Shown: one piece after another, positions 10,455 to 14,086 of the stretch
Layout of the letters: the number at the start of each line of letters is the position of its first letter
How positions within the stretch are numbered: the first letter of the stretch is position 1
Origin: Anoxybacillus tengchongensis
Lineage (GTDB): Bacteria > Bacillota > Bacilli > Bacillales > Anoxybacillaceae
NCBI RefSeq assembly: GCF_014201585.1
Contig: NZ_JACHES010000012.1
Location: 5,544-69,543, forward strand
Length of the DNA stretch: 64,000 bases
Direction: 5' to 3'
The notes under the pieces: model-generated
The model's database searches: none
Seen by the model: only the letters and a program-made list of their open reading frames with translations
Told to the model about the DNA's origin: nothing
Made by a program: the position numbers and the translations under genes

Positions 10455-10467
10455 ATGAGGGATGAAA

Positions 10468-10905
10468 ATGAACATTGAAACGAAATATCACGGAACGGTT
10501 CAACTTTCCGACATGGCGATCGTTTCGTTTGAAAACGGGTTACCGGGCTTTGAACATGAAAAACAATTTGCATTGTTGCCGATTCACGATTCGCCATTTA
10601 CGATTTTACAATCGGTGCAAAATAAAGATGTGGCATTTGTCATGATTGAGCCGTTTTCTTACTTTCCAACGTACGAAATCGAATTGGACGATACGACGTG
10701 TGACCAATTGAAAATAAAAAAAGAAAACGATGTGGCGCTATACGTCATTTTAACGGTCGCAGAACCGTTTACAAATACGACAGCGAACTTACAAGCGCCT
10801 GTCGTCATTAACGCTCACGAACGAATCGGGAAGCAAGTCATTTTAACAAATACGACGTATAAAACGAAACACCGACTTTTTCCAGAAACGGTTGAGGCGA
10901 AATAA
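10468..10905 (+). CDS. fliW: Flagellar assembly factor FliW
   Basis: A 145-residue FliW. In Bacillus, FliW binds either flagellin or CsrA: when flagellin is exported, FliW captures CsrA and relieves repression of hag translation. Typical sequence includes IETKYHGTVQLSD, FENGLPGFEHEKQFALLP and NLQAPVVINAHERIGKQV. GAGGG lies 6 nt before ATG 10468; an in-frame ATG at 10462 touches this site and is less likely. csrA follows after 12 nt. Confidence 0.96.
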   Translation: MNIETKYHGTVQLSDMAIVSFENGLPGFEHEKQFALLPIHDSPFTILQSVQNKDVAFVMIEPFSYFPTYEIELDDTTCDQLKIKKENDVALYVILTVAEPFTNTTANLQAPVVINAHERIGKQVILTNTTYKTKHRLFPETVEAK

Positions 10906-10917
10906 GGAGGCGAGAAT

Positions 10918-11160
10918 ATGCTTGTATTAACGCGCAAATTAAAAGAAGCGATTCAAATCGGCGATGACATCGAGGTCGTCGTTCTCGCCATCGATGGCGA
11001 TCAAGTAAAACTTGGCATTCGCGCACCGAAGCACGTGGATGTGCATCGAAAAGAAATATATCTCGCCATTCAACAAGAAAACAACGCAGCATCACTCGCC
11101 TCTGCCAATTCGCTTCAACAACTATCTGATCAATTAAAGAAAGGAGGGAAGAAACAATGA
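10918..11160 (+). CDS. csrA: Carbon storage regulator CsrA
   Basis: An 80-residue CsrA with the canonical start [20 protein letters not shown] and the [16 protein letters not shown] core. It is an RNA-binding repressor that blocks ribosome access on its target leader, in Bacillus mainly hag. A matching CsrA hairpin lies in the leader of the second flagellin at 11443. The stop overlaps the ATG of the next small gene. Confidence 0.97.
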
Positions 11161-11481: not shown

Positions 11482-13043
11482 ATGAGAATTAATCACAACA
11501 TTGCGGCGTTAAATACGCATCGCCAGTTAACAATGGGAACAAGCGCAGCAGCAAAAAATATGGAGAAGTTGTCGTCTGGTCTTCGCATTAACAAAGCTGG
11601 CGATGATGCAGCAGGTCTTGCGATTTCGGAAAAAATGCGCGGACAAATTCGCGGCTTAGAAATGGCAGCGAAAAACTCACAAGATGCGATCTCGTTAATC
11701 CAAACAGCAGAAGGTGCATTGAACGAAACACATGCCATCCTTCAACGCATGCGTGAGTTAGCGGTACAAGGTGCGAACGACACAAACACAACAATTGACC
11801 GCGACCAAATTCAAAAAGAATTGAACCAATTAATTTCAGAAATTGACCGTATTTCGAGCACGACACAATTTAACACAAAGAACTTGCTTGACGGTTCTTT
11901 AAATGCGACGTTCCAAGTTGGAGCGAATAGCGGTCAGATTATTAATTTAACGATTGCAACAATGAACTCTACAGCTTTAACAGTTGATGGAGGAAGTATT
12001 TCTGTCGGTTCAAACGCATTGGCTAGTGCATCGATTGCTAATATTGATAATGCAATCAACGCTGTGTCACAAGAGCGTTCAAAACTTGGTGCATTGCAAA
12101 ACCGCTTAGAGTACACAATTAACAACTTATCTACTTCTGCAGAAAACTTAACAGCTGCAGAATCTCGTATTCGCGACGTAGATTATGCTTTAGCCGCTTA
12201 AGCGGCGACAAGCACAGTCGTCCTAGCTGGAAACGGTTAGGAGTATAACCGGGTGAATTGCTGGAATCCCCTGAGAGCCTTTAGTGCCACAACGAAGCTG
12301 GAAACGGCAAGCGTGATGGCGTGAAAAAGCTAAAGGATTGGGCAACCAGCAGCCAAGCTCCTGTGAGGAAACTCTGGAGAAGGTTCAACGACTAGGACAT
12401 ACCACCTAAGGCGAGAGCTATGGTGATGAAGTCCGTAGGGTGAATAGGATGCTCCATCGTCCTAGATCATTCGAAGTGCCCGGCCCCTACCTAGCGAAAA
12501 GCTAGCGGGTGAAGAGATAGTCTAGTCATTTGTGAAAGCAAATGTTCGCACGATGGCGAAAGAAATGATGGAGTTTACGAAAAACAACATTCTTACACAA
12601 GCAGCACAAGCGATGTTGGCTCAATCCAATCAAATGCCACAAGGTGTATTGCAGTTACTTCGTTAATTTGATTGGAAGGGCGTCTTAGCTGGAAACGGCT
12701 AAGAGGATGACTGGGTGAATTGCTGGGAAGCCCTAAAGCTTTCCTTGCCACAACGAAGCTGGAAACAGCAAGCGTGACGGCCTGAAAAAAGGAAAGATGC
12801 TACAATGGGCAATCAGCAGCCAAGCTCCTGTGAGGAAACTCTGGAGAAGGTTCAACGACTAGGACATACCACCTAAGGCGAGAGCTATGGTGATGAAGTC
12901 CGTAGGGGAAATCCCCGAAGTGCCCAGCCCTTCGCTAGCTAATGGCTAGAAAGGTGAAGATATAGTCTACACAACGATCGAAAGACGTTGCGGCATGGCA
13001 AGCCAACCAACAACCACAAGGAGTATTGCAATTACTCCGTTAA
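11482..13043 (+). CDS. hag: Flagellin split by two group I introns (exons 11482-12183, 12553-12621, 12999-13043)
   Basis: Joined exons of 234, 23 and 14 codons give a 271-residue flagellin, the usual Bacillus length. Exon 1 runs from [16 protein letters not shown] to SRIRDVD. Exon 2 encodes [16 protein letters not shown]...QAMLA and exon 3 encodes [14 protein letters not shown] plus stop. Without splicing, translation ends after DVD-YALAA at 12201. Both junctions restore the invariant D0 helix, and the uninterrupted 801-residue flagellin in this window carries the same residues in order. Splice sites are set by a U.G pair in each P1 stem and a terminal G in each intron. A sigma-D promoter and CsrA leader lie upstream. 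Splicing itself is inferred, not observed. Confidence 0.88.
12184..12552 (+). ncRNA. Group I intron 1 in flagellin (369 nt, encodes YALAA tail)
   Basis: The core has the R element GTTCAACGACTAG (12383-12395) and S element AAGAGATAGTCTAG (12512-12525), which form P7. P1 pairs exon G12181-A12182-U12183 with 12217-12219 and contains U12183.G12217 at the cleavage site. The stem continues through U12184-A12216 and 12186-12190 with 12210-12214, then a GCCGC/GCGGC hairpin. The last base is G12552. The first 18 nt read on from exon 1 as Y-A-L-A-A-stop, so ribosomes stop before the ribozyme core. Group I introns in flagellin genes of thermophilic Bacillaceae are known (from memory, Geobacillus stearothermophilus). 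No ORF lies inside the intron. The IA-type subgroup is tentative. Confidence 0.88.
12622..12998 (+). ncRNA. Group I intron 2 in flagellin (377 nt, encodes alternative C-terminus)
   Basis: R element GTTCAACGACTAG is at 12850-12862 and S element AAGATATAGTCTA at 12957-12969. P1 pairs exon G12619-C12620-U12621 with 12679-12681 (U12621.G12679 at the cleavage site), then C12622-G12678, a small internal loop, U12625-A12676, and a 10-bp stem between 12626-12635 and 12666-12675. The last base is G12998. A stretch of about 94 nt of the core is identical to intron 1 (12347-12440), so the two introns are recent relatives. The first 45 nt continue the frame as [14 protein letters not shown] and stop, a near-copy of exon 3. 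Unspliced message therefore still gives a complete flagellin end. Confidence 0.85.
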
Positions 13044-13050
13044 TGAAGCA

Positions 13051-13090
13051 ACAAGAGACCTTAGGCTTTCTAAGGTCTCTTGTTTATTTC
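13051..13090 (+). terminator. Bidirectional terminator between split flagellin and endonuclease gene
   Basis: A 14-bp stem (13051-13064 with 13070-13083, loop GCTTT) followed by TTATTTC. The endonuclease stop codon lies in its right arm, so the convergent genes share it. Confidence 0.85.
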
Positions 13091-13921
13091 TCTCCATTTG
13101 TACGTAACAGACCAGTAGCTCCGTTGCAATGCGTTTGCAATTTCTTGAACAGTTGCTCCATCCTTTTTCATCTTTTTTATAAGCTGTATTTCTTCTTCGG
13201 TGTAATTTTTCCAACGATCAGAGTTGCTTACTAAAACCTTAAAATCAGGGTACTTACTTTTCCATTTTGCATTTTCTATTTGCAAACGCTCGTTCCAATT
13301 TGTTTTATAATACATGGATGGGCAATCGATCGTAATAGGAGAAATAAGATCTAAAAATAAGAATGTTTCTTTTACAGATGTCGTTTTCAAAATTACCCCC
13401 TGTCCATCTTTTCGTCTGCTTAATTGAAATTTTATATCAAAGGTGTGAAAGATGTGTTGTTGTAATTGCTGAAGTTCGGTTGCTGTGTAGCATTGTAAGT
13501 AGAGATAGATGTGCGGTGTTAAGTAAATCTGTTTTTTTCGAATATTTATTCTTGAAGAGATGCAAAGAGCCCCATCATCCATGTACAAGAAAGCAAGAAA
13601 GTGCGGAAGCGTGCAATATGATAACAAACGTACTGGAACACGTTTTACTCCGTCTTCATCGTAAAAGTGAGCATATAGTGCCGTAAACAGTTGTAAAGAA
13701 GCAGAACGAATACATTGACTCCTTGGTGTTATGTACAACAGTTTATCAAAAAATGATATTTTCCACTGTCGATATTCTTTCTGAGCTATTCCAAAATGTT
13801 CACGGTAGCTATGATTTTTTCTCCGACTGTTTGAATAGATCTTTGTGATTTCCCCATCACCTATGATACTAGCAATTAAAATATTCTGTTGAATAGGAGT
13901 TAATCGCCAGAAATCTTCCAT
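13070..13921 (-). CDS. LAGLIDADG-family homing endonuclease
   Basis: A 283-residue protein with two LAGLIDADG-like helices: ILIASIIGDGEI near residue 14 and FLAFLYMDDGAL near residue 110, each with its acidic catalytic residue. The layout of one chain with two motifs is that of a monomeric enzyme, similar to the LAGLIDADG_2 group found in bacterial group I introns. The C-terminal ~45 residues (YTEEEIQLIKKMKKDGATVQ...) look like a helix-turn-helix DNA-binding module. ATG 13921 is chosen because AGGAGG lies 9 nt upstream; the open frame reaches 14011 without a ribosome site. It is convergent with the split flagellin and outside both introns. It probably drives or drove homing of one of them; the target is not shown. 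Confidence 0.82.
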   Translation of the reverse strand: MEDFWRLTPIQQNILIASIIGDGEITKIYSNSRRKNHSYREHFGIAQKEYRQWKISFFDKLLYITPRSQCIRSASLQLFTALYAHFYDEDGVKRVPVRLLSYCTLPHFLAFLYMDDGALCISSRINIRKKQIYLTPHIYLYLQCYTATELQQLQQHIFHTFDIKFQLSRRKDGQGVILKTTSVKETFLFLDLISPITIDCPSMYYKTNWNERLQIENAKWKSKYPDFKVLVSNSDRWKNYTEEEIQLIKKMKKDGATVQEIANALQRSYWSVTYKWREINKRP

Positions 13922-14086
13922 ATGGTTTTTCCTCCTAACAAGAACGTGTATTCTTTGTTTTACCCATTGTAACACGTTTTTGAATAGATGTGTGTATTTT
14001 TCATTAGACATTCGTCAAAATCTTTTGTTTTAGAAGGTTTCATAAAGCATAAAATGAATAATTACTATATTTGTTTTCTCTCCTCT

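Follow-up and report, generated by a model that had tools for sequence, protein, structure and literature searches.

The window, by which we mean the whole 64,000-nucleotide stretch of Anoxybacillus tengchongensis DNA that was analysed, carries the flagellin gene hag as three exons separated by two group I introns (Table 1). Exon 1 matches Pfam Flagellin_N with 162.9 bits and positions 1-53 of the 86 of Flagellin_C. The Rfam covariance model RF00028 matches the window at 12189-12544 in intron 1 (68.5 bits) and at 12654-12990 in intron 2 (66.6 bits); both matches exceed the gathering score and have a complete core (model positions 1-253 of 253). The splice sites of intron 1 were placed at 12183/12184 and 12552/12553 because the relatives that do not have this intron (eight loci, L029-L036) read RDVD-MAKEMM continuously across the junction. 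Self-splicing has been reported for flagellin introns of relatives in the available part of PMC4853749.

Table 1. Features of the hag locus, in window coordinates
Feature	Position	Strand	Basis
fliW, flagellin-binding regulator (context)	10462..10905	+	Pfam FliW, 142.2 bits
csrA (context)	10918..11160	+	Pfam CsrA, 91.2 bits
hag (flagellin) exon 1, codons 1-234, ending RIRDVD	11482..12183	+	Pfam Flagellin_N, Flagellin_C
P1 helix of intron 1	12181..12219	+	fold; pairing in 50 distinct P1 sequences
P1 parts: exon GAU, 12181-12183; strand coding for the putative degron; loop with stop codon; IGS GUC, 12217-12219			
Group I intron 1, 369 nt, flagellin site 1	12184..12552	+	RF00028; intron-less relatives; alignment of 21 homologues
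In-frame intron 1 tail YALAA-stop, proposed ssrA-like C-degron	12184..12201	+	sequence; homologues; host tmRNA tag
hag exon 2 (MAKEMM...QAMLA), D0-C portion missing from the unspliced product	12553..12621	+	alignment to 6gow_D
Group I intron 2, flagellin site 2a	12622..12998	+	RF00028; ends inferred from P1 U.G pair and in-frame exon 3
In-frame intron 2 tail and stop, substitute flagellin C-terminus	12622..12666	+	sequence; site-2a introns
hag exon 3 through stop	12999..13043	+	sequence

Directly downstream of hag, outside both introns, lies a LAGLIDADG endonuclease gene (13070-14011, minus strand, 69.4 bits), which may mobilise the flagellin introns in trans. LAGLIDADG matches were observed in 10 of the 41 genomes of the family, and several of the nine that are not from this genome are interrupted by stops. 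Those of G003, G010, G035, G030, G019, G017, G016 and, weakly, G012 are about 1 kb or less from an intron match on the same contig. A third group I intron of the same genome (L003, contig C18:7950-8320, 38.5 bits) contains an HNH-like ORF; by reading, its host gene resembles queF, and the exon frame ends nearly at once past SLC-Q.

The first-pass annotation of this DNA had described an in-frame YALAA tail that starts at the first base of intron 1 and lies in the 5' strand of its P1 stem, and exactly such a tail is present. Positions 12181-12201 read GAT, the last codon of exon 1, followed by TAT GCT TTA GCC GCT TAA. These codons continue the frame opened by the ATG at 11482, which without splicing encodes 239 amino acids that close with YALAA-stop. 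Exon letters GAU and IGS letters GUC form base pairs, with U.G at the splice site; the tail supplies the 5' side of P1 and of the P1 extension, and its stop codon falls within the terminal loop. In the window the P1 fold has a free energy of -16.7 kcal/mol (z = -4.18). Among 50 distinct P1 sequences of one length, each pair is standard in 43-50 and changes are found on both strands; the GAU/GUC pairing with its U.G is present in 50 of 50, the exon and IGS letters having belonged to the search pattern.

The conservation of the tail was estimated in at least 114 distinct Bacillota introns at flagellin site 1, where distinct means different in sequence, not in species or independent event. The set was drawn from RF00028 places in the order, from a core pattern scan that disregards the tail (52 stretches), and from searches across the whole phylum and within three classes of it, in which several weaker or repeated places were left out. 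The order-level input comprised 146 of the matches listed, under stricter filters that place weaker matches outside the set; also omitted were three places in G043 that score the same as one included and one in G038 that was already in the set. A sequence pattern recognised 113 of these introns, and L295, which has an AGA codon and was missed by the pattern, was added by hand. Within the family, full-length intron 1 is found in 21 of 41 genomes, with the tail YALAA in 19 and YALVA or YAFVA in the remaining two. In all 114 collected introns the tail starts with Tyr and runs for 5-8 codons to an in-frame stop; the last residue is Ala in 111, and the tail ends Ala-Ala in 105, the others ending VA (six), AS (two) or AV (one). 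The third-last residue, scored in 113 tails, is L in 82, E in 9, S in 7, I in 6, F in 5, K in 2, and A and P in one each. The 18 of 113 tails with E, S or K at this position may bind ClpX more weakly. The tail YALAASAA of L174 was not counted as extra evidence, because Ala is also read from the 3' strand of that stem.

The codon-level constraint on the tail exceeds what P1 pairing requires, although part of the conservation is due to RNA pairing because the tail overlaps P1. Changes were counted as minimum changes on a tree of exon plus core, using one consensus P1 structure and the 96 five-codon tails among 104 compiled. The tail codon positions 1, 2 and 3 have undergone 11, 18 and 83 changes, respectively; over 492 sites of exon plus intron core, the mean is 10.5 changes per site. 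Where the consensus P1 leaves tail sites unpaired, 66 changes are located at three third-codon sites, whereas 4 are at four first- or second-codon sites (P = 5e-20, or 1e-7 without the third position of codon 5, the most variable site). Paired sites show a slight bias in the same direction, with 17 changes over three third-position sites and 25 over the eight others (P = 0.044). The first two positions of the stop codon never change, and the third switches between A and G 13 times. When sequences were simulated on the tree under structure alone, with paired sites evolving at their observed rates and unpaired sites at a shared mean rate, Ala-Ala-stop was present in a mean of 41.6 and a maximum of 75 of the 96 tails; the observed 87 was reached in 0 of 1000 runs. 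Furthermore, tails that differ in length between splice site and stop always do so in complete codons, and the distance from stop to IGS takes all residues modulo 3.

The tail was then compared with the host's own tag. A tmRNA scores above the cut-off in all 41 family genomes, and all 31 tmRNA tags read (this genome and 30 others of the family) are GKENYALAA or GKQNYALAA. Here the tag, encoded by ssrA on contig C11, is GKENYALAA; the comparison with the species' own ssrA tag that had been called for thus finds an ending of exactly YALAA. The commonest intron tails, TATGCTTTAGCTGCNTAA, share their codons with the DNA of a tmRNA tag, TACGCTTTAGCTGCTTAA (L004, where the tmRNA gene occupies 1501-1850), and the intron tail was therefore perhaps copied from ssrA. 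The genome encodes a ClpX (711 bits) with the motifs GYVG, ITRDV and RKH, which we take to be the sites of the ssrA-contact residues. The ssrA-contact pore residues of ClpX are named in the accessible part of PMC7652416, which also states for E. coli ClpXP that recognition of the tag depends most on its terminal Ala-Ala-COO, that substitution of its Leu or Tyr raises KM modestly, and that GFP-YALAA is robustly degraded and GFP-LAA is not. The window tail ends in Ala-Ala-COO, and a degron length of about five residues is reached by the 5-8 residues, counted from the splice junction, in 114 of 114 site-1 introns. Tail length and conservation (at least five residues, Ala-Ala nearly fixed, Leu variable) match the published requirements of ClpXP. 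Poly-alanine tails are also taken by B. subtilis ClpXP, according to the parts seen of PMC8957991 and PMC8138137, and by analogy this acceptance may cover the tail variants with E, K, S or P.

In other Bacillota classes, introns lie at a second flagellin position (site 2b), 21 codons and two bases beyond site 1, where they split a Leu codon in phase 2, as judged from the U.G pair and exon 3. Their tails are DEMAA, EVRWAA, EEIAA, EGIAA, EGLAA, ERMAA, EEMAA, EGMAA, EVLAA, EAPAA and EVPAA, or 6-7 residues in 20 of 20 when counted from the split Leu codon. An in-frame stop is present in all 20, and 19 end Ala-Ala-stop. The sole exception, EVLAK in L314, belongs to a flagellin remnant with only about 20 flagellin codons, which adjoins an intron-less flagellin frame with a normal end (its start lies outside the locus). 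This loss is what relaxed selection should look like, in a single case. On a midpoint-rooted tree of intron cores, for which 20 of the 93 site-2a cores were too short and were dropped, the 20 site-2b cores form a clade (support 0.972) nested in a clade with eight site-1 cores (support 1.0), and the site label changes four times by parsimony. Independent invention of the Ala-Ala tail at site 2b is thus unsupported; given this nesting, the tail was probably inherited and re-phased. Such re-phasing, as opposed to a new origin, is itself an argument for selection.

The second intron of the window occupies site 2a, where a different kind of tail was observed. In all 93 site-2a introns matched, the in-frame tail is a spare C-terminus with the end VLQLL(R/Q/G), and translation without splicing should therefore still give flagellin of full length. 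The genuine exon-3 C-terminus was located downstream in 73 of the 93 loci; its absence means little in the other 20, of which 19 are stretches of about 1.5 kb and one, L010, is at a contig end. The site-2a pattern requires at least 30 bases from exon to IGS and so misses short tails, and a separate reading of every locus found no short-tailed intron at this site.

Introns in other genes served as controls. Among 208 loci examined (some repeats), 121 were flagellin. Another 27 were dropped because no ORF enters their intron; they include site-2a flagellin introns that follow intron 1 and what read as queF-like or RNA genes. The remaining 60 made up the count. Only one of the 60 ends Ala-Ala: 0 of 23 at the nrdE site, 0 of 8 in thyA, 1 of 4 nrdA-like (L177, ...RKDAA) and 0 of 25 others, with classes assigned by short motifs and the last class possibly including non-exon ORFs such as endonuclease ORFs. 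The excess of Ala-Ala-stop tails that was sought in related flagellin introns is very large at sites 1 and 2b (flagellin 123 of 133 vs. non-flagellin 1 of 60; P = 8e-38, Fisher's exact test, relatedness ignored). The wider expectation of the first-pass annotation, an enrichment of ALAA-stop in introns of bacterial protein genes, stood for these two flagellin sites and failed for site 2a and for the nrdE, thyA and nrdA-like introns (1 of 35 together), and an enrichment across all introns of protein genes was rejected. The RKDAA-stop of L177, the lone non-flagellin Ala-Ala end, is a single case near chance. Short GKVA, GKSA, GKTA or GRVA tails precede the stop in 8 of the 23 nrdE-site introns (L203, L233, L238, L240, L248, L249, L257 and L264).

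We put at roughly 0.85 the probability that intron 1 carries a built-in quality-control signal, by which flagellin from unspliced message would be tagged YALAA for ClpXP. A ribosome reaching the junction of exon 1 and intron before splicing would add YALAA and terminate in the P1 loop, giving a flagellin that is without its C-terminal D0 end and closes like the cell's tmRNA tag; where the intron has been removed, full flagellin would be made. Since its end residues are those of the tmRNA tag, ClpXP should destroy this product without tmRNA, and YALAA-ended flagellin is probably shredded. The reading frame, the match to the host tag, the conservation at two insertion sites and the codon-level constraint beyond P1 pairing are observations, whereas the degradation by ClpXP and the reason for it are our inference. 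The degron interpretation, as a prediction from sequence, is strongly supported by comparison.

A possible reason lies in the partners of flagellin. When aligned to B. subtilis flagellin from the FliS complex (6gow_D), the sequence from exon 2 onward (12553-12663) covers residues 268-304. In the consulted portion of PMC6070490, flagellin residues 275-300 wrap around FliS, FliW protects residues 11-34, 50-72 and 240-260, and CsrA blocks flagellin translation in B. subtilis. Given this alignment and these contact regions, the unspliced product should keep the FliW sites and lose the site of the export chaperone FliS. A stable truncated flagellin would then sequester FliW, and CsrA, unopposed, could repress hag.

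Taking the sites together, we consider it likely that flagellin introns make their own failure harmless, those at sites 1 and 2b by writing a ClpXP tag and those at site 2a by writing a spare complete C-terminus, with which even an unspliced message would yield a working flagellin. The choice of solution seems to follow the insertion site and not the intron lineage.

Several other explanations of the tail can be weighed against the same observations. The P1 extension (GCYGC-NUAA-GC) might be conserved because the ribozyme needs it to fold or to make a contact through the loop, with Ala-Ala-stop as a by-product. That the tail is a P1 strand with the standard pairs and two-sided changes described above agrees with this, as does the fact that GCNGC is its own reverse complement, so that stems read Ala from either strand. 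Such a constraint on RNA only is nevertheless very unlikely, considering that changes at unpaired sites fall on third positions, that the motif stays in frame despite tails of 5, 6 or 8 codons and insertion in phase 0 at one site and phase 2 at the other, that Ala-Ala is kept in L063, L158, L166, L277, L282 and L306 though the loop takes in part or all of one or both Ala codons there, and that the motif is absent from introns in other genes. The early stop could instead shield the ribozyme core from ribosomes, with the preceding residues irrelevant. An in-frame stop is indeed universal at sites 1 and 2b, the thyA introns stop at once (QLYQR-stop in 8 of 8), and the part seen of PMC3984707 holds such a view of in-frame stops in many introns. 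This shielding predicts no residue preference, however, which fits the nrdE and thyA tails and does not fit those of flagellin sites 1 and 2b; as a substitute for a degron we regard it as improbable, while the two purposes can coexist.

The tail might also have been copied once, perhaps from ssrA (tmRNA TACGCTTTAGCTGCYTAA, intron TATGCTTTAGCTGCNTAA), and persist functionless through close kinship. All site-1 introns are probably homologous, and the codons of the tmRNA tag are those of most YALAA introns. Against this, exon and core keep changing, the simulation under structure alone loses Ala-Ala-stop in more than half of the tips, the site-2b tails are unlike ssrA save for their last codons and yet end Ala-Ala, and L314, a gene remnant, has lost the ending; mere inheritance is therefore exceedingly unlikely. 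A further proposal keeps the degron and changes its purpose, in that poor splicing at low temperature would turn flagellin off through the tag instead of accidents being cleaned up. Temperature-dependent activity of flagellin introns has been described in thermophilic Firmicutes (PMC4853749, in part, citing Hayakawa and Ishizuka 2012). YALAA or related tails are, however, also found in Metabacillus (YALAA), Halobacillus (YALAS) and Sporosarcina (YVLSAA). These hosts are not thermophiles. A thermal switch is thus possible and on the whole doubtful, and it is not exclusive of the degron explanation.

The proposed intron tag can be set beside known systems. It has the same YALAA end as the host's tmRNA tag and the same expected reader, ClpXP, whereas in trans-translation the tag is added from ssrA onto a stalled chain; here five residues are encoded in cis and reached by normal translation to a stop, with neither tmRNA nor a stalled ribosome, and ssrA lies elsewhere. 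In eukaryotes, the products of readthrough and of retained introns carry aberrant C-terminal tails that lead to protein loss. That is a general property of the translation of noncoding sequence, in contrast to a conserved tag placed by the intron. The RqcH poly-alanine tails of B. subtilis (PMC8957991, PMC8138137, each in part) are likewise C-terminal Ala runs read by ClpXP, but they are added on stalled ribosomes and the intron tails are encoded in the message; on this analogy, YAEAA or EVPAA tails may also work as ClpXP tags. The group I introns described from flagellin genes of thermophilic Bacillaceae (Hayakawa and Ishizuka 2009, 2012) lie in the same gene and are probably the same introns. 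Flagellin introns with temperature-dependent splicing are already known (PMC4853749, available part), and early in-frame stops in bacterial group I introns have been proposed to aid splicing and folding (PMC3984707, available part). The introns described here share the early stop past the 5' exon with the latter and differ in that the preceding residues are conserved too. The portions of these two papers that were available treat the thermophilic Bacillaceae flagellin introns with regard to self-splicing and temperature and mention neither a degron nor a substitute C-terminus. No earlier report of either as an intron-encoded feature was found in the open-licence literature, including the available parts of PMC3984707, PMC4853749, PMC8987985, PMC3649979, PMC13153191, PMC5587285 and PMC6581868, a scope outside which the original flagellin-intron papers fall.

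The intron tails constitute a natural set of tag variants for the specificity of ClpXP in Bacillota. If the quality-control reading is true, a mobile-type RNA element encodes a protease tag and thereby spares its host the consequences of failed splicing, a form of protein quality control encoded by an intron. This would help to account for the persistence of group I introns in a highly expressed protein gene even though transcription and translation are coupled.
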